A stretch of 30,424 nt of DNA from Candidatus Poribacteria bacterium (lineage in GTDB: Bacteria; Poribacteria; DTPJ01; WJIO01). The notes beneath the pieces were generated by a model. That model saw nothing but the letters and a program-made list of their open reading frames with translations. It was not told the origin of the DNA and searched no databases. Position 1 is the first letter of the stretch, and every line of letters begins with the position of its first letter. Shown in pieces: positions 4,743 to 29,040 of the stretch. The DNA lies in assembly GCA_014730235.1 (NCBI GenBank), contig WJIO01000115.1:1-30424 (forward strand), read 5' to 3'. The translations under genes and the position numbers were made by a program.

Positions 4743-5603
4743 TTATCCCGTTTTATAGCGTTCAAGATGACCATCTTTTGCATATTCGGAAACTTTATCC
4801 AGCATCTGGTTACGTTTTTTTTCCGTAAGCGGTTGCCATCTTCGGGCAGTCTCAATATTCTTTTTTAGAACTTCAATCGAATCCATGCCGCTTACCAATG
4901 TAGCTACAGGCATTGAAAGGGAATATGTAATAGCTTCATCGGCTGAGATCCCTGTTTTTAATATCTGGTTGCTTGCCAGGCTTTTCATGCCGATAACACC
5001 GATTTTCCGTTTTATAAGTATTGGCAGTATTTCTTTCGTAAAGCTGCGATAATGGTAATCCAGCAGGTTAATCGGCATTTGCACCGTATCCCAGTCAAAA
5101 TCCTTATCCAGCATTTCCTTAAAAAGCTGTGGCCAGCGATGCCCTGTAAAGCCTATATAGCTTATTTTACCCTCTTCCCGGGCTTTAACAGCTTCTTCAA
5201 TAGCACCCTGGGAAAAGATTTTTTCTGGTTCCCCTTCATGTATTATTTCATGAAACTGAAGAAGATCAATATGATCCGTCTGAAGCCTGCTCAGACTTTC
5301 ATCCAGTTGACGCCGAAAAGTAGCCGCATCCCGACCGTGATTCTTGGTCATAAGAAACACCCGTTCCCGGTAGCCGTCTTTTAGCGCAGAACCCATAAAC
5401 CGCTCACTTTCACCATCGTTATAACACCATGCGTTGTCCAAAAAATTTACCCCTTCGTCAATAGCCATTCTTATAATCCGAAGGGCAAGCTGAGGGTCTC
5501 GGGCTTTGCCTATATGATATCCCCCAACTCCGATAATTGTTACATTAACGCCTGTTCTTCCCAGGACTCGCGTTGGAATTTTGTTGATATATTTCCCTTC
5601 CAT
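4743..5603 (-). CDS. Aldo/keto reductase
   Basis: This is an NAD(P)H-dependent oxidoreductase of the aldo/keto reductase superfamily, 286 residues with a single (beta/alpha)8 barrel. The tetrad is readable: D56 and Y61 in FLDNAWCYNDGESE, K87 in LMTKNHG, and H118 in LLQFHE. YIGFTGHRWP follows on a later strand. The C-terminus ends shortly after the barrel, without the CxxC-type Fe-S tail seen in some bacterial relatives. The ATG at 5603 is preceded by AAAGGGG at good spacing. The gene lies between the receiver-phosphatase gene (57 bp upstream) and the hydrolase gene (9 bp downstream), so it may be at the tail of the selB operon. The substrate cannot be read from the sequence. Confidence 0.93.
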   Translation of the reverse strand: MEGKYINKIPTRVLGRTGVNVTIIGVGGYHIGKARDPQLALRIIRMAIDEGVNFLDNAWCYNDGESERFMGSALKDGYRERVFLMTKNHGRDAATFRRQLDESLSRLQTDHIDLLQFHEIIHEGEPEKIFSQGAIEEAVKAREEGKISYIGFTGHRWPQLFKEMLDKDFDWDTVQMPINLLDYHYRSFTKEILPILIKRKIGVIGMKSLASNQILKTGISADEAITYSLSMPVATLVSGMDSIEVLKKNIETARRWQPLTEKKRNQMLDKVSEYAKDGHLERYKTG

Positions 5604-5660: not shown

Positions 5661-6824
5661 TTATTCCTTGTAACCAATAGCCAGAAGAGTCATATCATCC
5701 GGGTTAGTTAGCCCTTCTGCAAAAGCCTCAGCGGCGCACATAATTGCCTCAACAAAAGGTTCGGGCTCCAGATGTGTATTGTTTGATATTGCCTTGTTAA
5801 GTTCCTCCGCATGAAACTGTTTTGATTCTCTGTTCATCAGTTCCAGAAGGCCGTCTGTAAATAAAAACAACATATCCCCGTTTTTTAATTCATTTTCATG
5901 ATCCTGATATATAGTGTTGGGTATCATGCCTAATGCCACAGATTGTTCGCTTTGCATTTCATAGAACTCATCATTGCTTCTCTGAATGAGGAAAGGTCTT
6001 GGATGTCCGGCATTGGAATATATAATCTTTTTCCTTCTGGTATCAATCACCATAGAAAAAGCCGTTACGAAAACCCCCAGATCACCTGAATCCATAAGCC
6101 TATGGAACTGCTGATTTATTTGTGATAATAAATAACCCGGGCTGGCAAGGCTTGAACTAAGGCTTGTTAATAGAGTCTTTATAACGCCTGTGATCATGGC
6201 TGCCTGGGGGCCGTGTCCCATTACGTCGGATATAAATATCTCCACAAGACCGCCGGATAAGGGTCTTATATCAAAAAAATCCCCACCAACAGCAAAAGTT
6301 GGTATATATTTGTGAGCGAAGTTCAATTCCGTTGAATCTGGATATTCCTGAGGTAAAAATGCAAGCTGTACCTCCCGGGCCATAATAAGCTCATCTTCTA
6401 ATCTCTGGTTGACTCTTTTTAGTTCATCGTAAAGGTATTTTACCCTTAGTAGTGACTTAACCCGGGCCAGAAGTTCATACCGCTCAAACGGTTTACGTAT
6501 AAAGTCATCCGCACCGATGTCAATAGCTTCAATTTTCTTTTCTGGCTCTTTTTCATAGGCTGTAACCATAACAATCGGTAAAGCCCGGGTACTTTCCCGT
6601 TGCCTAAGTCTCCTGCATACTTCATAGCCGTCCATACCAGGCATCATTATATCCAGCAGTATAAGATCGGGTTTTTCTGAGCTAACCTTATCCAGGGCTT
6701 CCTGTCCGTTATATGCAGGTATAACCTGATAACCTTCCGATTTCAGATTTAGTTCCAGAAGCCTGACATTACGGGGGACATCATCTACCACTAAAATTTT
6801 TGCAGGTCCTTGCGGATTTCTCAT
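5661..6824 (-). CDS. Response regulator with SpoIIE/RsbU-type PP2C serine phosphatase output
   Basis: This 387-residue protein pairs a receiver (about 9-125; acceptor D58 in LILLDIMMPG, K111) with a short coiled coil (about 125-155) and a SpoIIE-type PP2C domain (about 165-387). Metal-site motifs are present: VGGDFFD (179-185), SDVMGHG (199-205), FTDGLLE and NPDDMT near the end. Family members dephosphorylate STAS-domain anti-anti-sigma factors under control of phosphorylation. No STAS protein or RsbW-like kinase lies in the window, so the target is elsewhere. AAAGGT precedes the ATG at 6824, and the upstream receiver gene ends 17 bp before it. It sits downstream of a hybrid kinase and a free receiver, which suggests it is the output of that relay. 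Confidence 0.93.
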   Translation of the reverse strand: MRNPQGPAKILVVDDVPRNVRLLELNLKSEGYQVIPAYNGQEALDKVSSEKPDLILLDIMMPGMDGYEVCRRLRQRESTRALPIVMVTAYEKEPEKKIEAIDIGADDFIRKPFERYELLARVKSLLRVKYLYDELKRVNQRLEDELIMAREVQLAFLPQEYPDSTELNFAHKYIPTFAVGGDFFDIRPLSGGLVEIFISDVMGHGPQAAMITGVIKTLLTSLSSSLASPGYLLSQINQQFHRLMDSGDLGVFVTAFSMVIDTRRKKIIYSNAGHPRPFLIQRSNDEFYEMQSEQSVALGMIPNTIYQDHENELKNGDMLFLFTDGLLELMNRESKQFHAEELNKAISNNTHLEPEPFVEAIMCAAEAFAEGLTNPDDMTLLAIGYKE

Positions 6825-6841
6825 TTTTATAAACCTTTAAA

Positions 6842-7222
6842 TTATTGATCTGAATTGTTCTGGAGCGTCCTTGCAATAATACCGGGAACTTCCCGGGTGT
6901 TAATAGGCTTACTTATATAGTCGTCACAACCAGCTTCCAGAATCCTCTCCCTGTCTCCTTTCATAGCGTATGCAGTAACGGCGACTATTGGTATATCTTT
7001 TGTTTCAGGTTCATCTTTTATCCTTTTTGTTAGTTCAAGACCATCAATATGGGGAAGTTGAATATCCATAAGTATCAGATCGGGCTTTTCTTTTGATAGA
7101 TAATTCATTGCCTCCTCACCTGATGCGGCTTCCGCTACTTCATATTTATTGGATTTGAGAAGTATCTTCAAAAGTCGGCGATTTCGGTCATTATCCTCTA
7201 CCACCAGTATTTTATGTGACAT
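6842..7222 (-). CDS. Single-domain response regulator (CheY/DivK-like receiver)
   Basis: This 126-residue protein is only a receiver domain. The acidic pocket is KILVVEDND, the acceptor is D53 (LILMDIQLP), the switch region is VAVTAYAMKGDRE, and the conserved lysine lies in YISKP. The N-terminal DNDRNRRLLKILL and the TAYAMKGD segment resemble DivK-type receivers that shuttle phosphoryl groups inside relays and have no DNA-binding output. Its ATG overlaps the stop of the hybrid kinase gene by one base (TAATG at 7224-7220), which points to translational coupling. The natural reading is a phosphotransfer partner of the kinase or a competitor of the downstream receiver-phosphatase. Confidence 0.95.
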   Translation of the reverse strand: MSHKILVVEDNDRNRRLLKILLKSNKYEVAEAASGEEAMNYLSKEKPDLILMDIQLPHIDGLELTKRIKDEPETKDIPIVAVTAYAMKGDRERILEAGCDDYISKPINTREVPGIIARTLQNNSDQ

Positions 7223-10200
7223 TATTGCTCTCCGTCTCCCTCATTATAGCTTTGTAATTCCAGCGTTTCCCCCTCTCTTGCCATATTATTTACGCGGAAA
7301 CGTTCTATTTTTCTTACTGCTTCCAGAAGATTTGTTTTTGCGTCTATTCCTTTGTATACAACAGATTGGACTTTACTATTCAAGGCCTGTTTGTCCTCCT
7401 GAGTAAGTTCTTTTATTGTGCATATAATTATAGGTATATCATCAGCTTCAGGATGCTGGCGAAGGTTTTGTATAACTTCAAAACCACTTATATCAGGTAA
7501 AAGAAGATCAAGAATAATAAGTTCAGGATGATAATCTATTGCTTTTTGTATTCCCGTATTTCCATCAAGGGCTTTTAGAACATCAATTCCCTCATTACTT
7601 AATATAGCTGATAATAAGCTTAGATCTTCATTTTTATCCTCAATAACAAGCACTTTAGGCGGTGTTTCCCTTGAATCTCTTGAAAACTCTATTCTGTTTA
7701 GTGTCTGCATAAGTTGGTCTTTGTCTATAGGTTTCACAAGATAACCAACTGCACCCATACTGAACCCGAAGCTTTGATCGTCAACAATAGAAACTATGAT
7801 AATTGGTATATCGCTTGTATCTTTTATAGTTTTCAAATCCTGCATAACCTGCCATCCATCTTTTTTGGGCAGCATTATATCAAGGGTAATGGCAAAGGGT
7901 TTTATCTCTTTTGCCATTTCCACAGCCAACTCCCCGTCAGAAGCAATAATTGTTTCATATCCGGCCTCAGCCATGTATATTCTCAACAGTTGGGCTGCCT
8001 GGGGATTATCCTCTACAATCAATATAGTTTTGTCTTTTGCTTCATCCTGGGCGTGGGCGGCGTCATGAAGTTTTTCCACTACGCTTTCGTGTGACTCAAT
8101 ATGAGTTAATCGGGATGGTAAAATCAATGGTATAGTAAAATAGAAAGTGCTTCCCTTACCCTTGCCCTCACTTTCAACCCAGATCTGACCACCATGAAGA
8201 TTTACAAGTCTCTTGGTGAGTGCAAGACCAAGCCCGGTACCTTCATACCGGCGGGAACGAGAAGAGTCCAACTGCCTGAATTCATCAAATATCTTATCCT
8301 GATCACCCGGTTCTATTCCTATTCCTGTATCTGCAACAGATATAAGAAATTCATTATCATGAAGCTCTGTTTTAATAGTTATTTTTCCACCGTTTGATGT
8401 GAATTTGGCTGCATTAGACAGTAGATTATACATTATCTGCTTAAATTTTACAGGATCTGCATTTATTTCCGGAATGTCTTCAGCAACTTTGGTTTCCAGT
8501 GTTATTTGCTTTTTATTTACGATATCACGAATTATCGACTGAACATCCTCGATAGATTCTGAAAGGGAGAATTTCTCAGGCTGTAACTCCATTTTCCCGG
8601 CTTCCACCTTGGATAGATCGAGAATATCATTTATCATACGGAGTAAATGTGTTCCACTTTCGTGTATATCTATTACCGATGCCTTCTGATCCTCATTTAA
8701 TGGCCCGCATAAACCATCCCGCAGGACTTCCGCAAAACCGATTATTGCGTTTAAAGGTGTTCTGAGTTCGTGGGACATATTGGCCAGAAATTCGCTTTTC
8801 ATCTGGTCTGCCCGTTTTAATTTTATGTTGGCCAATTCCAGTTCCTGGGTTCTTTCCTCAACTTTTTTCTCCAGAGTTAAATTTACATCCCTTATAAGAG
8901 AATGCAGGTCCGCGTTCTGTATCGCCATTGCTGTGCGGTTAGCAAATGAACCTAATATGGAAAAATCAAGTTGAGATATGGTATGACGGCTGGATAAGGC
9001 CAGAACCCCCAAAAGCTCATCACCTACAAGAAGAGGATAGCCCACAAAAGATATTAGACCTTGTTCCTCAAACCATTTTGAGTTATGTATATCTTTATCA
9101 GCGTATGTGTTATTAGTCATTGATGGCTTTTTGGTCTCGGCAATTTTACCAACTTTCAAGCCGCCGATAGGTATTCTCAAATACTGCTCATCCTCTGCAT
9201 ATATACCCACTGTTACCTTTAGATGAAGGCATTTCTCATTATCCAGGCAGATTGCCGAATGGGTACAGTTATCACATAGGTCGCCGCTGTCCACGATCCA
9301 TAATCTGGCAAAGGCTGCGTCAAAAGTATTTTTCAGGGTTTCCATTGTTAGATTAAGCACATCGCTTAAGTCCAAATGAGAAAGCATATTCAGAGATATG
9401 TTATCGAGGGATGTGCGCTTTTCCAAGTTTGAAACCATTTCGTTAAACGATTCCGCCAGCTCTCCCATTTCGTCCTTGGAATTAATCTGAACCCTCTTTG
9501 TAAGGTCTCCTGATGCTACTCGTTTTACCGTATCAGTAATCCATTCCAGCGGAGTAATAAATTCTTTCTTTGCTATATATAAACCCAGAAGGAAAAATGA
9601 AATTATAAGGGCAAGTCCCGGAAGAGATATAATCCATATCATCTTACGGACAGGGGCATAGGCATAATCAAGTTCCTGATAAACGATAACTGTCCAGGGT
9701 GTGGTAAAGCTGAATTCAGGTTGGTTAATCTCTATCTTGGCAAATCCAATTAACATATCCGGACCGTCATGTATATGAGCCACAAAAGAACCTGATTGAC
9801 CCATAGAAGTGCTGGGAAGCATACCGGGTAAGAGTTTTTGTTTTAGCGGTTGCATACCTTTAGAAAGCACTACCATACCTTTATCTGAGGCTAGTATACC
9901 TCTGCTGCCTTCACCTACATCTATATCGAAAACGCTTTCAAAAACCTGAGTTATGTCCAGAACTCCTTTTATTATTCCTACTAATTTTCCACTATTTATA
10001 TTATCAATCACAGGAACCTGAACTGATATTGAAAACATATCTGCGCTTTCATCATAGGTAGCGTCTGATAGATGTATTCTTCCCACACCTTTGGCATAAG
10101 CCTGCTGCCACCAGTCCTCATCAGCCTGCCAGTAATCGCTGGTTTTATTAGTTGCCGCTACAAGTCGTCCTGAATCATCGGTGGCCAGTATTTCACCAAA

Positions 10201-10608
10201 GGCATAACCCAGGGACCTAAATACATTAAAAGTCCGGGACAGGTTATTTTCCAATATACCTTTTATAAGATGGTGTTCCGAATCCAGATTATTCCATGTT
10301 TTTTCAATATTTGTTATCTCCCATTTTGAAATTTCCTCCGATGATAATTTTGACATAGCAGAGGCATTACGCAGATAGTTGACTGTCATTCCCAGAGTAG
10401 AAAGGTTCCTGATTGCCCTTATACTGGTTGTAAGTCTCAGGGATATATTTTCGCGAGCTTTTTCTGATAACTGTTGAAAACTTTCTCCGATCATCTCTCT
10501 ACGTTGAGATATACTGACAAAATACGTTATTGATATAGCTATAATCAGAGGTATTACACCTGTAACTATAAGGGTTATAATTAATTTGCCTTTTATACCT
10601 GGTCTCAT
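7222..10608 (-). CDS. Hybrid sensor histidine kinase (Cache-HAMP-GAF-HisKA-HATPase-REC-REC)
   Basis: This 1128-residue membrane kinase has a membrane helix at 9-31, an extracytoplasmic double-Cache-like sensor (about 35-315) and a second helix (323-345). Next come HAMP (about 346-400), a GAF domain (about 405-570) and a coiled coil. The HisKA domain has phospho-acceptor H613 in MSHELRTP. The HATPase has an N-box at N732, DTGIGI and GTGLGLALTK. Two receivers follow, with D910 and D1034. The GAF domain holds C445, C448, C454 and C460 (C-x2-C-x5-C-x5-C), which could bind a metal or Fe-S centre. Its ATG overlaps the selB stop as ATGA (10608-10605), and its own stop overlaps the next start. The ligand is unknown. 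Two terminal receivers plus two separate ones imply a multi-step relay. Confidence 0.95.
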   Translation of the reverse strand: MRPGIKGKLIITLIVTGVIPLIIAISITYFVSISQRREMIGESFQQLSEKARENISLRLTTSIRAIRNLSTLGMTVNYLRNASAMSKLSSEEISKWEITNIEKTWNNLDSEHHLIKGILENNLSRTFNVFRSLGYAFGEILATDDSGRLVAATNKTSDYWQADEDWWQQAYAKGVGRIHLSDATYDESADMFSISVQVPVIDNINSGKLVGIIKGVLDITQVFESVFDIDVGEGSRGILASDKGMVVLSKGMQPLKQKLLPGMLPSTSMGQSGSFVAHIHDGPDMLIGFAKIEINQPEFSFTTPWTVIVYQELDYAYAPVRKMIWIISLPGLALIISFFLLGLYIAKKEFITPLEWITDTVKRVASGDLTKRVQINSKDEMGELAESFNEMVSNLEKRTSLDNISLNMLSHLDLSDVLNLTMETLKNTFDAAFARLWIVDSGDLCDNCTHSAICLDNEKCLHLKVTVGIYAEDEQYLRIPIGGLKVGKIAETKKPSMTNNTYADKDIHNSKWFEEQGLISFVGYPLLVGDELLGVLALSSRHTISQLDFSILGSFANRTAMAIQNADLHSLIRDVNLTLEKKVEERTQELELANIKLKRADQMKSEFLANMSHELRTPLNAIIGFAEVLRDGLCGPLNEDQKASVIDIHESGTHLLRMINDILDLSKVEAGKMELQPEKFSLSESIEDVQSIIRDIVNKKQITLETKVAEDIPEINADPVKFKQIMYNLLSNAAKFTSNGGKITIKTELHDNEFLISVADTGIGIEPGDQDKIFDEFRQLDSSRSRRYEGTGLGLALTKRLVNLHGGQIWVESEGKGKGSTFYFTIPLILPSRLTHIESHESVVEKLHDAAHAQDEAKDKTILIVEDNPQAAQLLRIYMAEAGYETIIASDGELAVEMAKEIKPFAITLDIMLPKKDGWQVMQDLKTIKDTSDIPIIIVSIVDDQSFGFSMGAVGYLVKPIDKDQLMQTLNRIEFSRDSRETPPKVLVIEDKNEDLSLLSAILSNEGIDVLKALDGNTGIQKAIDYHPELIILDLLLPDISGFEVIQNLRQHPEADDIPIIICTIKELTQEDKQALNSKVQSVVYKGIDAKTNLLEAVRKIERFRVNNMAREGETLELQSYNEGDGEQ

Positions 10609-12515
10609 TTCAATTTCCGGTAATTTCCTTCTCGAACAGTTAAACCGATGGAATCACAGTATTCAAGAAAAGGCACTGCATATTTACGGCTTGTATCCAA
10701 AAGCTGTCTTAACTCTGATACAGTTACCCGGTTATTCTGCTTCAGGTATTGTGATAGTTTTTCTGTTCCTTTTTTCAAAGTATCATTATGTAAAACTATA
10801 TCAGGGCTTATTCTCACCAGTTTTCCTTTTATAACCAGAGCCTTAAATATATCCTGAACCTCTTTTTTTTCGTGAGCTTTTAAGGCCTCTCCAATTTCTT
10901 TTTCATCTGGCGGTGATAAATCTTTTTCTATAAACAGTTCTTGTATTTTTCGGCTCAATTCTTCTTGTCTTTCGTCAAAGACAATTTCATGTGTAGACAA
11001 TTTAATTATATTTCCATGCCGAAGAATTATACCCTTTTTAGTCAATCTTTCTGTCAGGTAATCAAAGGTAAATTCGTCAATCCCTGCCTTTGATCTAATT
11101 TGTGTATAATTTGCACCTTCTGCCAGAGGATTTTTATCATGAAATTCCGATATATTTGATATGATCTGTTCCTCAATACCTTCTATCCGGTTCAAGGAAG
11201 CGATAAAACGCTGATTATTTGATATATAACTTACAATTTGATCCATATTTTCCATTTTAACTAGAAGTTTTTGTATCTTTTCATAGGAATAAGGAAGATA
11301 ATATTTAAGGTCATTCTCGCGTATAAAAGGAGAAATGCTGTTTTCTGCCGCCAGTTTTACAATTTCGTTTTCTTCGGCTGATTCCCATTTATCAAGGAGT
11401 TCTATAGTTTCTTTTGCCAAACGTTTATGTTTGGATGGAAATGGGTTTAGTACATATCCGCCGCCCAGGGTCTCCTGGTTGGTAAAATCCCTTATTATGA
11501 ATTTGTCGTCTTTAAAAGCAAAAACTGGGCTTTCCAGTCGAAACTGTACATAACCCGATTCCTCCGGCAAAAGGCCTTCTTCGTGGGATAATAGAACGGC
11601 TCTACCAAAAACTTCCGTCGTTCCCAGGAAAAATCTTACCCTTATCCAGTTTTCAAATATCCTGTTGCATGTATCAACAATATGGACTACAGTGTCAACT
11701 CTTTCAGTTGATCGGGACAGCGTGCCGTCACAAACTACATGCCCCCGCTCTATTCCAGATTTACCTGTTAAAGATAAATTAAGGGCGACTCTCTGGCTTG
11801 GATACGCTTTATCAACCTGCTGTTCATGTACCTCTATACTTCTTATTCGGGCTTTACCATTACCAGGCATTATATTTACATTATCATCTTTGTTTATGCT
11901 GTTTCCTATTAGTGTGCCGGTAACTATAGTACCCAGGCCTGATATAACAAAAATCCGGTCAATTGGAAGACGGGAAACGCTGTGACTTTTTATATGTGAC
12001 TCAGTTAGCTCAATCTGTTCGGTAATAGCTTCTTTAAGCTCTTCGATACCATCAAGGGTTATGGAAGAAACTTCTAATACTGGTGCATCTTCCAGAGATT
12101 TCCCTTTGACAAGTTCCCGGGCCTGTTTAACAATTTCGTCCACCCTTTCCCGGGATACCATATCTATTTTAGTTATAACTATTATCCCTGAGGATATTTC
12201 CAGCAGGTCTATTATATTGAGATGTTCTACAGTCTGAGGTTTTACACCTTCTATTGCGTCAATAACCAGCAGGATCAGATCCATACCCCACACACCGATG
12301 AGCATGTTCCTGATAAACTTTTCATGTCCGGGAACATCAACCACCCCAACCCGAGAGCCGTCAGAAAGATCAAAATGAGCGAACCCAAGACCGATAGTAA
12401 GTCCTCGTCGCTTTTCTTCCTCCCAGCGATCTGTTTCTATACCCGTCAGTGCCTTGATTAATGCGGTTTTCCCATGATCCACATGTCCTGCTGTACCGAT
12501 TATAATATTACGCAT
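10605..12515 (-). CDS. selB: Selenocysteine-specific elongation factor SelB
   Basis: SelB is a GTPase that brings selenocysteinyl-tRNA(Sec) to the ribosome at UGA codons marked by a SECIS hairpin. G-motifs are intact: [11 protein letters not shown] (7-17), [10 protein letters not shown] (37-46, the SelB-type form), DVPGHEKF (60-67) and TKID (115-118). EF-Tu-like barrels follow. The C-terminal ~260 residues are winged-helix repeats that bind SECIS RNA; the last contains [13 protein letters not shown] and ends in a basic GNYRKLK. At 636 residues it has normal full length. It is the first gene after the promoter at 12561-12589, and its TGA overlaps the kinase start (ATGA). No selA, selD, tRNA-Sec or evident UGA-interrupted gene lies in the window. 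Confidence 0.97.
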
Positions 12516-12560: not shown

Positions 12561-12589
12561 AGTATACATTATATAAATTTTATCGTCAA
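12561..12589 (-). promoter_or_regulatory. Sigma-70-type promoter for selB operon
   Basis: Read on the minus strand, a -35 box TTGACG (12589-12584) is followed by exactly 17 nt and a -10 box TATACT (12566-12561). Transcription would start near 12554, giving a ~40-nt leader ahead of the selB ATG at 12515. AGAGGAAAG lies in that leader. This is seen by inspection only. Confidence 0.75.
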
Positions 12590-12626: not shown

Positions 12627-12655
12627 TTGACATGGATATAAATGTTTAGTAATAT
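12627..12655 (+). promoter_or_regulatory. Sigma-70-type promoter for the glycosidase-like/oxidoreductase genes
   Basis: A perfect -35 TTGACA (12627-12632), 17-nt spacer and -10 TAATAT (12650-12655) lie on the plus strand. The predicted start near 12662 falls downstream of an in-frame ATG at 12642, so translation must begin later, at 12702. The promoter is back to back with the selB promoter, about 38 bp apart. Confidence 0.75.
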
Positions 12656-12701
12656 ACGAATATTAGATATGCGAAGAAACCTTAAATCAAAGGGATATAA
12701 A

Positions 12702-14129
12702 ATGACAAATCCAATTAATATAGATTCCAGATTAGAATTGATGGTAGATGATCACATAATTGACAACCTGACAGGGGATGCCAGACTTACTATGCATCGC
12801 TCCACACCTCAAAACGTAGCAATAGATTTGGATAAATCCTGGGAAGGCAATAGCTGTGCATATATGACGGTATTTAAAGATGGTGAAATTTACCGTATGT
12901 ATTATCGTGGTTCCCACGCAGTTTACACAAAGGATAGTATAGACGAAACGCATCCTGAATATACATGTTATGCCGAAAGTTACGATGGCATTAACTACAC
13001 AAAACCCGGCCTGGGATTATTTGAAATTGCAGGAACACTGGATAATAATGTTATTATGACTCCAGAAACGGCAGGCCGCGCAACCCATAATTTTTGCCCT
13101 TTTATTGACACCAGACCTGATGTGCCTGATTCTGAAAAATACAAAGCTGTTGGCGGGTTAAGCGATGGTCTTTTTGCCTTTATGTCTGACAATGCTATAC
13201 ATTGGAAAAGACTCAAAGAAGAACCGATAATTACACAAGGGGCTTTCGACTCCCAGAATCTCGCCTTCTGGGATTCAGAGCGAAATGAATACAGGGCATA
13301 TTTCAGGGATTTCAGGGATGGTAGAGATATAAAAACATGCACATCCCGGGATTTCCTGAACTGGACTGATCCTGTATATCTCGAGTACTCCCCCGGCCGG
13401 GTAAGTCAGCTTTACACAAATCAGATAAACCCTTACTACCGCGCCCCTCATATTCTGTTGGGTTTTCCCACCCGTTATATTGATCACGGCTGGACAGAAG
13501 CCACAAAGGCCTTACCACAGCTTGAATACCGTCAAATTAGAGCCAGCAGATCAGTAAGAGAGGGTACTGCCTTAACTGATGGAATGTTTATAGTTGGTCG
13601 TGAAAGGCATAATTTCAAAGTCTGGCCTGAGTCCTTCATTCGTCCAGGATTAAAGTTAAAGGAAAACTGGTTCTATGGTGATAATTATCAAAGCCTGGGT
13701 TTACTTGAGACAAAGTCAAATATACACAATGCACCGGATGAGCTTTCCTTTTATACCAGTGAATCCAGCATGCAGGGGAACAGCACCCGTTGGAGAAGAC
13801 ATACCATAAGGATTGATGGCTTTGCGTCGTTGAACGCCCCATTAAGTTGTGGAGAAATGCTGACAAAACCACTGATTTTCAAGGGAGATAGGCTAATTAT
13901 TAACTATTCCACATCAGCAGCCGGAAGCCTTCAAGTTGAAATACAGGATGCCAAAGGCTATCCAATTTCAGGTTTTTCGTTGTCCGAATCAGAGGAAATG
14001 TTTGGCGATTCCCTCAGTCAGGCTTTCATCTGGAAAAACGGCAGTGATGTAAGTTCCTTAGCCGGAAAAACTGTAAGATTAAGATTCGTACTTAGAGATG
14101 CAGACCTTTACTCAATAAAATTTATGTAA
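12702..14129 (+). CDS. Five-bladed beta-propeller glycosidase-like protein (GH32/GH43-like)
   Basis: This 475-residue protein begins SRLELMVDDHIIDNL, a start I associate with uncharacterised proteins of Planctomycetes and Poribacteria related to the GH32/GH43 propeller fold. Blade-like repeats are visible: WEGNSCAYMTVFKDGEIYRM, then SQNLAFWDSERNEYRAYFRD with TSRDFLNWTDP, and later a DELSFYTSES segment. The last ~100 residues look like a beta-sandwich (LTKPLIFKGDRLIINYS). No signal peptide is seen, so it is probably cytoplasmic. Start ATG 12702 has AAAGGGAT at 12689-12696. The upstream ATG at 12642 would precede the predicted transcription start. It is followed 79 bp later by a sugar-type oxidoreductase. 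Catalytic acids cannot be assigned with confidence. Confidence 0.75.
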   Translation: MTNPINIDSRLELMVDDHIIDNLTGDARLTMHRSTPQNVAIDLDKSWEGNSCAYMTVFKDGEIYRMYYRGSHAVYTKDSIDETHPEYTCYAESYDGINYTKPGLGLFEIAGTLDNNVIMTPETAGRATHNFCPFIDTRPDVPDSEKYKAVGGLSDGLFAFMSDNAIHWKRLKEEPIITQGAFDSQNLAFWDSERNEYRAYFRDFRDGRDIKTCTSRDFLNWTDPVYLEYSPGRVSQLYTNQINPYYRAPHILLGFPTRYIDHGWTEATKALPQLEYRQIRASRSVREGTALTDGMFIVGRERHNFKVWPESFIRPGLKLKENWFYGDNYQSLGLLETKSNIHNAPDELSFYTSESSMQGNSTRWRRHTIRIDGFASLNAPLSCGEMLTKPLIFKGDRLIINYSTSAAGSLQVEIQDAKGYPISGFSLSESEEMFGDSLSQAFIWKNGSDVSSLAGKTVRLRFVLRDADLYSIKFM

Positions 14130-23619: not shown

Positions 23620-24250
23620 CTCTTGTCCGGGGACTCCAGATGTATTTATGAATCTGAAGCTGGAATCTGGCTTTCAGCTTATCCTTCAGCATCCATTCAA
23701 CCAGATTACACGGCTCCAATATTCCAAAAACCGGTGAAAGCAAAACTTGTGTATTTTGGAGCAATTCATATCGTTTTATAACCTGAAGTACCCATATGTA
23801 ATCCTGCTTATGGCTTATGACAAACTTAACCTGATCCTTCTGATCCAGATAATTTATGTTTTCCCATAGATTACGATCTTGCATGGCACTGCCGGGGCAT
23901 TTGATGTCCATGATTTTTACCACTCGGTGATCTAACTTATCCACAGGCAGGCTTCCGTTGGTCTCTATCAGTATTGTATAATTACATTCTAATAGTAACT
24001 TTATAAGTTCATTAACTTCATCTAACTGCAACAGCGGCTCCCCGCCAGTTATTTCCACAAGATTACAGTCGTAGCTTTCAATCATCTCAATTATCTGATC
24101 AATAGAAAGCTCCTGTCCATCTTCATAGGCATACCTGGTGTCGCAGTATAAACATCGCAGGTTACAGCCCGAAGTTCTGACAAACACGCATGGAAGTCCT
24201 GCATAGGTGCTTTCACCCTGTATACTGTAGAATATTTCGCATACTTTCAT
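23612..24250 (-). CDS. queE: 7-carboxy-7-deazaguanine synthase QueE
   Basis: This radical SAM enzyme converts 6-carboxy-tetrahydropterin to 7-carboxy-7-deazaguanine in the queuosine (and deazapurine) pathway. The 212-residue length is normal. The N-terminus FYSIQGES is typical of QueE. The cluster-binding cysteines are C29, C33 and C36 in SGCNLRCLYCDT, and EITGGEPLLQ is the SAM-contact motif. IETNGSLPV and IMDIKCPGSA follow in the usual order, and the end QIHKYIWSPRTRGV matches the family's QLHK...W motif. Its ATG overlaps the rseC-like stop by 4 bp, and its 3' end overlaps the next gene. No queC, queD or queF is present, so the rest of the pathway lies elsewhere. Confidence 0.95.
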   Translation of the reverse strand: MKVCEIFYSIQGESTYAGLPCVFVRTSGCNLRCLYCDTRYAYEDGQELSIDQIIEMIESYDCNLVEITGGEPLLQLDEVNELIKLLLECNYTILIETNGSLPVDKLDHRVVKIMDIKCPGSAMQDRNLWENINYLDQKDQVKFVISHKQDYIWVLQVIKRYELLQNTQVLLSPVFGILEPCNLVEWMLKDKLKARFQLQIHKYIWSPRTRGV

Positions 24251-24684
24251 GAGGCTTTTCCGCTATGGATTATATCCGTTATTACAGCGCTGCAGGAGTT
24301 ATGCTTTTTCAGACGGTTATTATACAGCCTTGCGGGTATAAAAGCCAATATAAATGTTAAAAAACCTGCTCCAGCGGACATTAGTTCGATATTTCCCTTA
24401 TAATCAATATAACTGCATATTAAATAAGCTATTCCCATTCCCAGCACAAAAAATATCAGTGGAAGCCCAAAGACCATAAACACGGCGAAGAAGTAGATGT
24501 CAGAATATATCTGGAAGCGAACAGTATCACCGATTTTCGCACCGATGTTATTTTGCGCGTCAGTCAGCATATGACCGCCCTGTTTTATGCATTTCATTAT
24601 ACATTTAGAGCAAGCTTCATGTTCTTCAAGCTGTATAACGGCTTTTGTCCCCTTTGTTTCTATTACTAAACCTTTTTCTAACAT
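24247..24684 (-). CDS. RseC/SoxR-reducing-system family membrane protein
   Basis: This 145-residue protein has the RseC family layout: a beta-rich N-terminus with a cysteine cluster C25-x2-C28-x3-C32 (EACSKCIMKC), GAKIGDTVRFQI, then two membrane helices (about 64-86 and 100-118) and a polar tail. RseC relatives are linked to sigma-E control and to the Rnf-like reducer of SoxR. The neighbour upstream is apbE, whose product attaches FMN to Rnf/Nqr-type subunits, which supports a link with a membrane electron-transfer complex. The cysteines could ligate Fe-S or be redox active. Its start has a poor ribosome site, and an inverted-repeat element separates it from apbE (94 bp), so transcription may be weakened here. 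Confidence 0.82.
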   Translation of the reverse strand: MLEKGLVIETKGTKAVIQLEEHEACSKCIMKCIKQGGHMLTDAQNNIGAKIGDTVRFQIYSDIYFFAVFMVFGLPLIFFVLGMGIAYLICSYIDYKGNIELMSAGAGFLTFILAFIPARLYNNRLKKHNSCSAVITDIIHSGKAS

Positions 24685-27846: not shown

Positions 27847-29040
27847 CTAATCACCTATTTTTATTACCACCAAGCTTGTATCGTCTCTCTGCACTACCCC
27901 CTGGCGAAAGGTGTTTAATTCTCTAAAGATTTTATCTTTAAGCTGTGAGGCCGAAAGGGATGTATAATCCACTATTATTTGTTGTAGCCGCTCTTCGCCA
28001 AATTCCTGATTTTCAGAATTCTCAGCTTCGGTTATACCATCTGTATAAAGCACCAGCAGATCACCGACTTCCCAGCTTTTACCTTCGGGATTAAATTCCT
28101 GGTCTTCCAGCACTCCCAGAAGGCAGTAGTTGGATTCCAGAGTATCCAATTCTCTGGATTTGCAATGATAATGGTAAGGGTATGGATGTCCAGCATTGCA
28201 GAAATTCAGAGTTCTGTCCCTTACATCCAAAGTAAGATGACAGAAGCTCATGAAAAGATTACCATGAACAAAACTATAAACCATATCGTTAAGGGCTGAC
28301 ATACTGGCTTTTATTGAGCTATCAGTTCTTAGCTGGGTATGGAGACAGCTTTTCGCAGTGGATACCATCAATCCGGAATGAAATCCATGTCCCATTACAT
28401 CACCCATTACAATTCCGACCTTTTCGTCGGGTTGAAGGAAATAATCGTAATAATCGCCGCCCACCAGTTCAGCCGGATAACATGCGCCTGATGCTGATAT
28501 GGTTAACCCATCAGGAGTCTTTATATTCAGGTCTTCTGTGGGCAGCATATTCATCTGGAGTTCTCTGGCTCTGGTCATGTCCTGCATCATGCGCTCGTTC
28601 TGACGTATGATCTGAATTTGGCGTTCCATATCTTCTCTGAAACGCTGAACAACAACTTTCATGACGTTTTTCAGAAGCTCAATATCCTCCTGAAGGGCCT
28701 GGTAGAACTCTCCCTGTCCAACTTCAAGCTTTAGAAGAACGGAATTTCCAATGGATGAAACTGACGCGCTCCTGGGGCCTTCATCCATGACTGCCATCTC
28801 GCCAATAAACTCACCCCCACCGCGCTTGGCAATCTCCACTTCAGATTTATGAACTTTAAGCTGGCCCTCTACGATGAAATATACAGCATCGCCTTTTTCA
28901 CCTTCTTCAAATAACATTTCATCAGGGGAAAACCGCACCTCTTTTACCAGATCAGCTATATTTTCCAGAGAGGGAACAGAAAGTTCGCTGAATAATTCTG
29001 TTTTCTTCAGAAAATTAACTCTCTCAGAATGTGTAAGCAT
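27847..29040 (-). CDS. Cyclic-nucleotide-binding domain fused to SpoIIE-type PP2C phosphatase
   Basis: This 397-residue signalling protein has an N-terminal cNMP-binding domain (about 12-125) with an intact phosphate-binding cassette, FIGEMAVMDEGPRSASV (78-94; E81 and R90 conserved). A coiled coil follows (about 130-165), then a PP2C serine phosphatase of SpoIIE/RsbU type (about 180-397) with VGGDYYDYF (193-201), GDVMGHG (213-219), YTDGITEAEN and QRDDTSLVV. This predicts that cAMP or cGMP controls dephosphorylation of a STAS-type antagonist, but no such partner is nearby. It lies 6 bp after the creatininase-family gene and 2 bp before the six-hairpin enzyme gene, an unusual operon. It is the second PP2C of this type in the window (other at 5661). 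Confidence 0.93.
   Translation of the reverse strand: MLTHSERVNFLKKTELFSELSVPSLENIADLVKEVRFSPDEMLFEEGEKGDAVYFIVEGQLKVHKSEVEIAKRGGGEFIGEMAVMDEGPRSASVSSIGNSVLLKLEVGQGEFYQALQEDIELLKNVMKVVVQRFREDMERQIQIIRQNERMMQDMTRARELQMNMLPTEDLNIKTPDGLTISASGACYPAELVGGDYYDYFLQPDEKVGIVMGDVMGHGFHSGLMVSTAKSCLHTQLRTDSSIKASMSALNDMVYSFVHGNLFMSFCHLTLDVRDRTLNFCNAGHPYPYHYHCKSRELDTLESNYCLLGVLEDQEFNPEGKSWEVGDLLVLYTDGITEAENSENQEFGEERLQQIIVDYTSLSASQLKDKIFRELNTFRQGVVQRDDTSLVVIKIGD

Follow-up and report, generated by a model that had tools for sequence, protein, structure and literature searches.

Organisation of the selB locus

The DNA analysed here (the window, 30,424 nucleotides) is an entire contig of a Candidatus Poribacteria MAG of 5.53 Mb, which is assembled in 451 contigs, is 91.6% complete and has an estimated contamination of 4.77%. 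Four consecutive genes, all on the minus strand, encode SelB, a hybrid kinase, a free receiver and a receiver-SpoIIE phosphatase; the last three are referred to here as the trio. The features of the locus are as follows.

12561..12589 (-), promoter-like site upstream of selB, TTGACG-17-TATACT, 10 of 12 (promoter scan)
10605..12515 (-), selB, selenocysteine-specific elongation factor, 636 aa (TIGR00475, 366 bits)
7222..10608 (-), hybrid sensor histidine kinase, 1128 aa (Pfam; 59% identical ortholog in genome G001; alignment)
6842..7222 (-), free single-domain receiver, 126 aa (Pfam; same-position orthologs 46-60% identical)
5661..6824 (-), receiver-SpoIIE (PPM/PP2C-type) phosphatase, 387 aa (Pfam; phylum-wide orthologs; catalytic residues)
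4743..5603 (-), aldo/keto reductase gene, 57 nt downstream of the phosphatase (Pfam)

Family scans bore out the identities given to the four genes in the initial annotation (SelB, hybrid kinase, REC and REC-SpoIIE), and the junctions it described agree with the coordinates. selB (12515-10605) and the kinase gene (10608-7222) share the 4 nt ATGA, the kinase and free receiver (7222-6842) overlap as TAATG, and 17 nt separate the free receiver from the phosphatase (6824-5661). The four genes are thus packed like an operon and may share a transcript. It is possible that the aldo/keto reductase gene forms the tail of that transcript; no evidence ties it functionally to the other genes.

It had also been proposed that one good promoter precedes all four genes. 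The position of the promoter-like site upstream of selB is plausible. Overall, however, the scan did not rise above chance, returning 27 promoter-like sites where shuffled sequences gave 28.1 +/- 6.0, and one site within selB itself (11896-11869) scores equally well. The terminator scan was not above shuffles, and the region upstream of selB contains three pairs of short inverted repeats whose meaning is not clear.

Selenocysteine decoding in the window genome

The SelB polypeptide matches TIGR00475 well above the cut-off (366 against 242 bits), its domains are full length, and its nearest named relatives are all from Candidatus Poribacteria. It is encoded by the only full-length selB gene of the genome, and the remaining selenocysteine machinery is present outside the window: tRNA-Sec on contig C397 (79 bits), selA on contig C246, and a selD with an in-frame TGA inside its AG(U)ACK motif. 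The window genome therefore decodes selenocysteine. Two of its genes belong to the SelA family and exceed the TIGR00474 cut-off (C246:1704-2852 and C64:7849-9198; loci L066 and L067). The stronger (530 bits) aligns only from about profile position 68, and none of the frames immediately upstream supplied the N-terminal part; the weaker (424 bits) is full length.

No selenoprotein gene was indicated beside the module among frames ended by TGA with at least 40 further open codons, the sole candidate in that scan being an RseC-like frame at 24247-24684, and Rfam and tRNA scans of the window gave no matches. Elsewhere in the phylum, a partial SelB-like frame of 458 aa (288 bits) lies upstream of the full selB in genome G033 (L064:12325-13701); the genes between the two repeat in size, which points to either a tandem duplication or an assembly repeat.

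The kinase, receiver and phosphatase form a conserved unit

Pfam matches give the kinase the domain order dCache-like sensor, HAMP, GAF, HisKA, HATPase, REC, REC, the dCache match (42.6 bits) being below its 45-bit cut-off. The small protein that follows is a single REC domain, and the phosphatase is a REC-SpoIIE protein whose two domains are both matched by RssB of Pseudomonas aeruginosa (PDB 3EQ2, 3F7A), the nearest solved structure to do so. Alignment with relatives showed that the catalytic residues are intact throughout: the kinase keeps its phospho-histidine and both receiver aspartates, the free receiver keeps its aspartate, and the phosphatase keeps the metal-site aspartates of the PPM fold as well as its receiver aspartate. 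These features, and a sensor histidine kinase gene beside a receiver-PP2C phosphatase gene, an arrangement kept in relatives, are those of an RsbKY-type system.

The trio is a genuine unit, its order recurring across Poribacteria. It was found in this order in genomes G001, G057, G016, G029, G007, G004, G043, G037, G027, G045 and others, where the genes are mostly separated by short gaps or overlap. Genus g8 departs from this in having several hundred bases between receiver and phosphatase, a gap that at some loci holds a further weak STAS-like frame, and G074 has no separate receiver at the usual place. What precedes the kinase gene depends on the lineage. The window has selB there, G001 a CBM9 protein and G057 an SSF transporter; the place is taken by a GAF-SpoIIE phosphatase in G029, G007, G035 and G004, and by a universal stress protein in G010, G037, G027, G043 and G045. 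selB therefore occupies a variable slot.

A probable input module for partner switching

STAS and RsbW-type proteins are components of the partner switch. Trio loci were read in 19 relatives, and in 14 of them genes for STAS-domain and RsbW-type (HATPase_c_2) proteins adjoin the trio. The earlier suggestion that the SpoIIE-type phosphatase feeds partner switching is very probably correct, because these genes sit in the orthologous loci. Neither gene lies next to the trio in the window genome, G057 or G016, and in G001, G029 and G074 the trio lies near a contig end. The window genome has STAS-RsbW pairs on contigs C333 and C355, away from the trio, which by orthology most likely acts on a STAS protein in trans. 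Neither a sigma factor nor any other target of the module was identified.

We consider it likely that the trio is the input module of a partner-switching response with an RsbK/RsbY-like layout, and that selB is an unrelated neighbour brought in by rearrangement. The kinase would sense a signal and autophosphorylate on its histidine, and the phosphate may then pass directly to the free receiver, to the receiver of the phosphatase, or to both, the two receivers fused to the kinase probably acting as internal brakes or as sinks for phosphate. The phosphatase would dephosphorylate the STAS protein, which could then engage the RsbW-type kinase/anti-sigma factor and so free the target of the latter. 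That Poribacteria carry a widespread RsbKY-like input module of this kind, with an extra free receiver, is a testable statement. No description of such a module in this phylum turned up in the literature searched, a library that is itself incomplete.

The closest characterised systems come from three other bacteria. RsbK of Bacillus cereus has a near-identical layout: in this membrane hybrid kinase a sensor precedes HAMP, GAF and the kinase core, an inhibitory receiver is fused at the C terminus, and an HPt domain is absent (PMC4574943). Its partner in this sigma-B input, RsbY, combines a receiver with a PP2C phosphatase and has a STAS protein as its substrate (PMC4574943), as we infer for the poribacterial enzyme. 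The window system differs from RsbK/RsbY in the dCache-like sensor and two fused receivers of its kinase and in the free receiver encoded between the other two genes; beside the trio, no gene for an RsbM methyltransferase was seen. In Mycobacterium smegmatis a histidine kinase, RsfS, is likewise adjacent to a receiver-PP2C phosphatase, RsfR, which dephosphorylates an anti-sigma antagonist, although RsfS is of the CHASE3 type (PMC10950880). Phosphorylation lowers RsfR activity (PMC10950880) and raises that of RsbY, and in the window phosphatase it may do either. The output protein of the HptB-HsbR-HsbA system of Pseudomonas aeruginosa is also a receiver-PP2C protein; however, HsbR has an extra anti-sigma kinase domain and, unlike the trio, is fed via a separate HPt protein, HptB (PMC6482189).

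Direct phosphotransfer or phosphorelay

The trio was initially described as a multi-step phosphorelay. A relay of this type (His-Asp-His-Asp) requires an HPt domain, and Pfam detected none in any trio protein. The trio might still be a true relay if it borrowed an HPt encoded elsewhere, and the two intact receivers fused to the kinase, together with the four HPt domains present in the genome, would be consistent with this. Every one of those HPt matches, however, sits in a large open frame on another contig, and RsbK functions without HPt according to its authors (PMC4574943). Furthermore, sponge Poribacteria (G010 among them) and G004 retain the free receiver and phosphatase although their kinase lacks fused receivers, which favours direct phosphotransfer. 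We therefore regard a borrowed-HPt relay as unlikely, and the description as a phosphorelay is unsupported. By analogy with RsbK, the fused receivers of the window kinase may instead play an inhibitory role.

selB as a probable incidental neighbour of the trio

The initial annotation raised the possibility that selenoprotein synthesis and an environmental signal are co-regulated at this locus, with a single transcript tying selenoprotein capacity to whatever the kinase senses. The ATGA overlap between selB and the kinase gene lends itself to this reading, as does the fact that no other selenocysteine gene lies beside selB in the window, and Clostridia likewise have selA-selB followed by a two-component pair. 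At the distances covered, however, the gene order is not conserved in relatives, an outcome that the initial annotation had named as refuting the idea. SelB was searched for in 58 Poribacteria genomes. Both selB and the gene for the orthologous phosphatase are present in 51 of these, and the two genes are close together in the window genome alone (1 of 51). These comparisons are with other families, the nearest relative compared, G001, being from the same order but a different family. Eight other genomes carry both genes on one contig, 464 kb to 3.9 Mb apart, and in the rest they are on separate contigs. No trio follows selB in any of 20 Poribacteria selB neighbourhoods read directly, or at any other Poribacteria locus among 80 named loci. 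In G001, selB comes after a GFO/IDH/MocA gene and is convergent with a HAD-like gene, and the trio is on a different contig behind the CBM9-domain gene.

The two are also found singly: the trio is present in G016 (95% complete), which lacks selB, and G003, G023, G040 and G055 have selB without a phosphatase at E <= 1e-60. The regulators found near selB in Clostridia and in other Poribacteria are of the OmpR or NtrC type and do not correspond to the trio. Co-regulation of selB with the module thus appears very unlikely, and no published link of selB to two-component genes, or of Poribacteria to selenocysteine, that bears on this arrangement was present in the titles and abstracts searched. The more modest alternative in the initial annotation, mere sharing of a promoter, is the best fit.

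With selB and the trio widely separated in relatives, the adjacency in the window seems to be a chance local arrangement of genes rather than a regulatory circuit linked to selenium; a tempting but unsupported link between selenium and stress is thereby removed. A receiver-phosphatase query gave 87 matches in the window genome, mostly to receiver domains, and with so many matches signalling genes can be expected as common neighbours. It is probable that selB came to lie upstream of the module by rearrangement in the window lineage, where the overlap may yield co-transcription and some translational coupling with no dedicated selenium circuit. That selection has conserved the overlap across the window's own family, translationally coupling SelB supply to a stress-signalling module, seems highly improbable.

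Least credible is an assembly chimera at the selB-kinase junction, for although the MAG is fragmented and carries some estimated contamination, the join is a natural 4-nt overlap of two complete frames with no jump in sequence composition, and selB and the kinase have a common closest relative in G001 (57-59% identity); this explanation was dropped.

Other selB neighbourhoods and window genes

In seven loci from Alkaliphilus and related Clostridia (L089, L090, L091, L092, L094, L095 and L110), an OmpR-type regulator and a HAMP histidine kinase come after selA-selB on the same strand; this two-component pair recurs beside selB but is of another family than the trio. A Germane-domain gene follows the kinase (family-scanned in L089). 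In other Poribacteria a histidine kinase and an NtrC-type sigma-54 activator are directly divergent from selB (L070:3736-6786 and L079:4873-7796). As these OmpR- and NtrC-type neighbours belong to other families, no single conserved selB link is indicated.

Within the window, the gene divergent from selB (12642-14129, plus strand) has no Pfam or NCBIfam match, and its start may be at 12702, after a promoter-like site TTGACA-17-TAATAT at 12627-12655. A second SpoIIE-type phosphatase, encoded at 27847-29040 on the minus strand, carries a cyclic-nucleotide-binding domain where the trio enzyme has its receiver.
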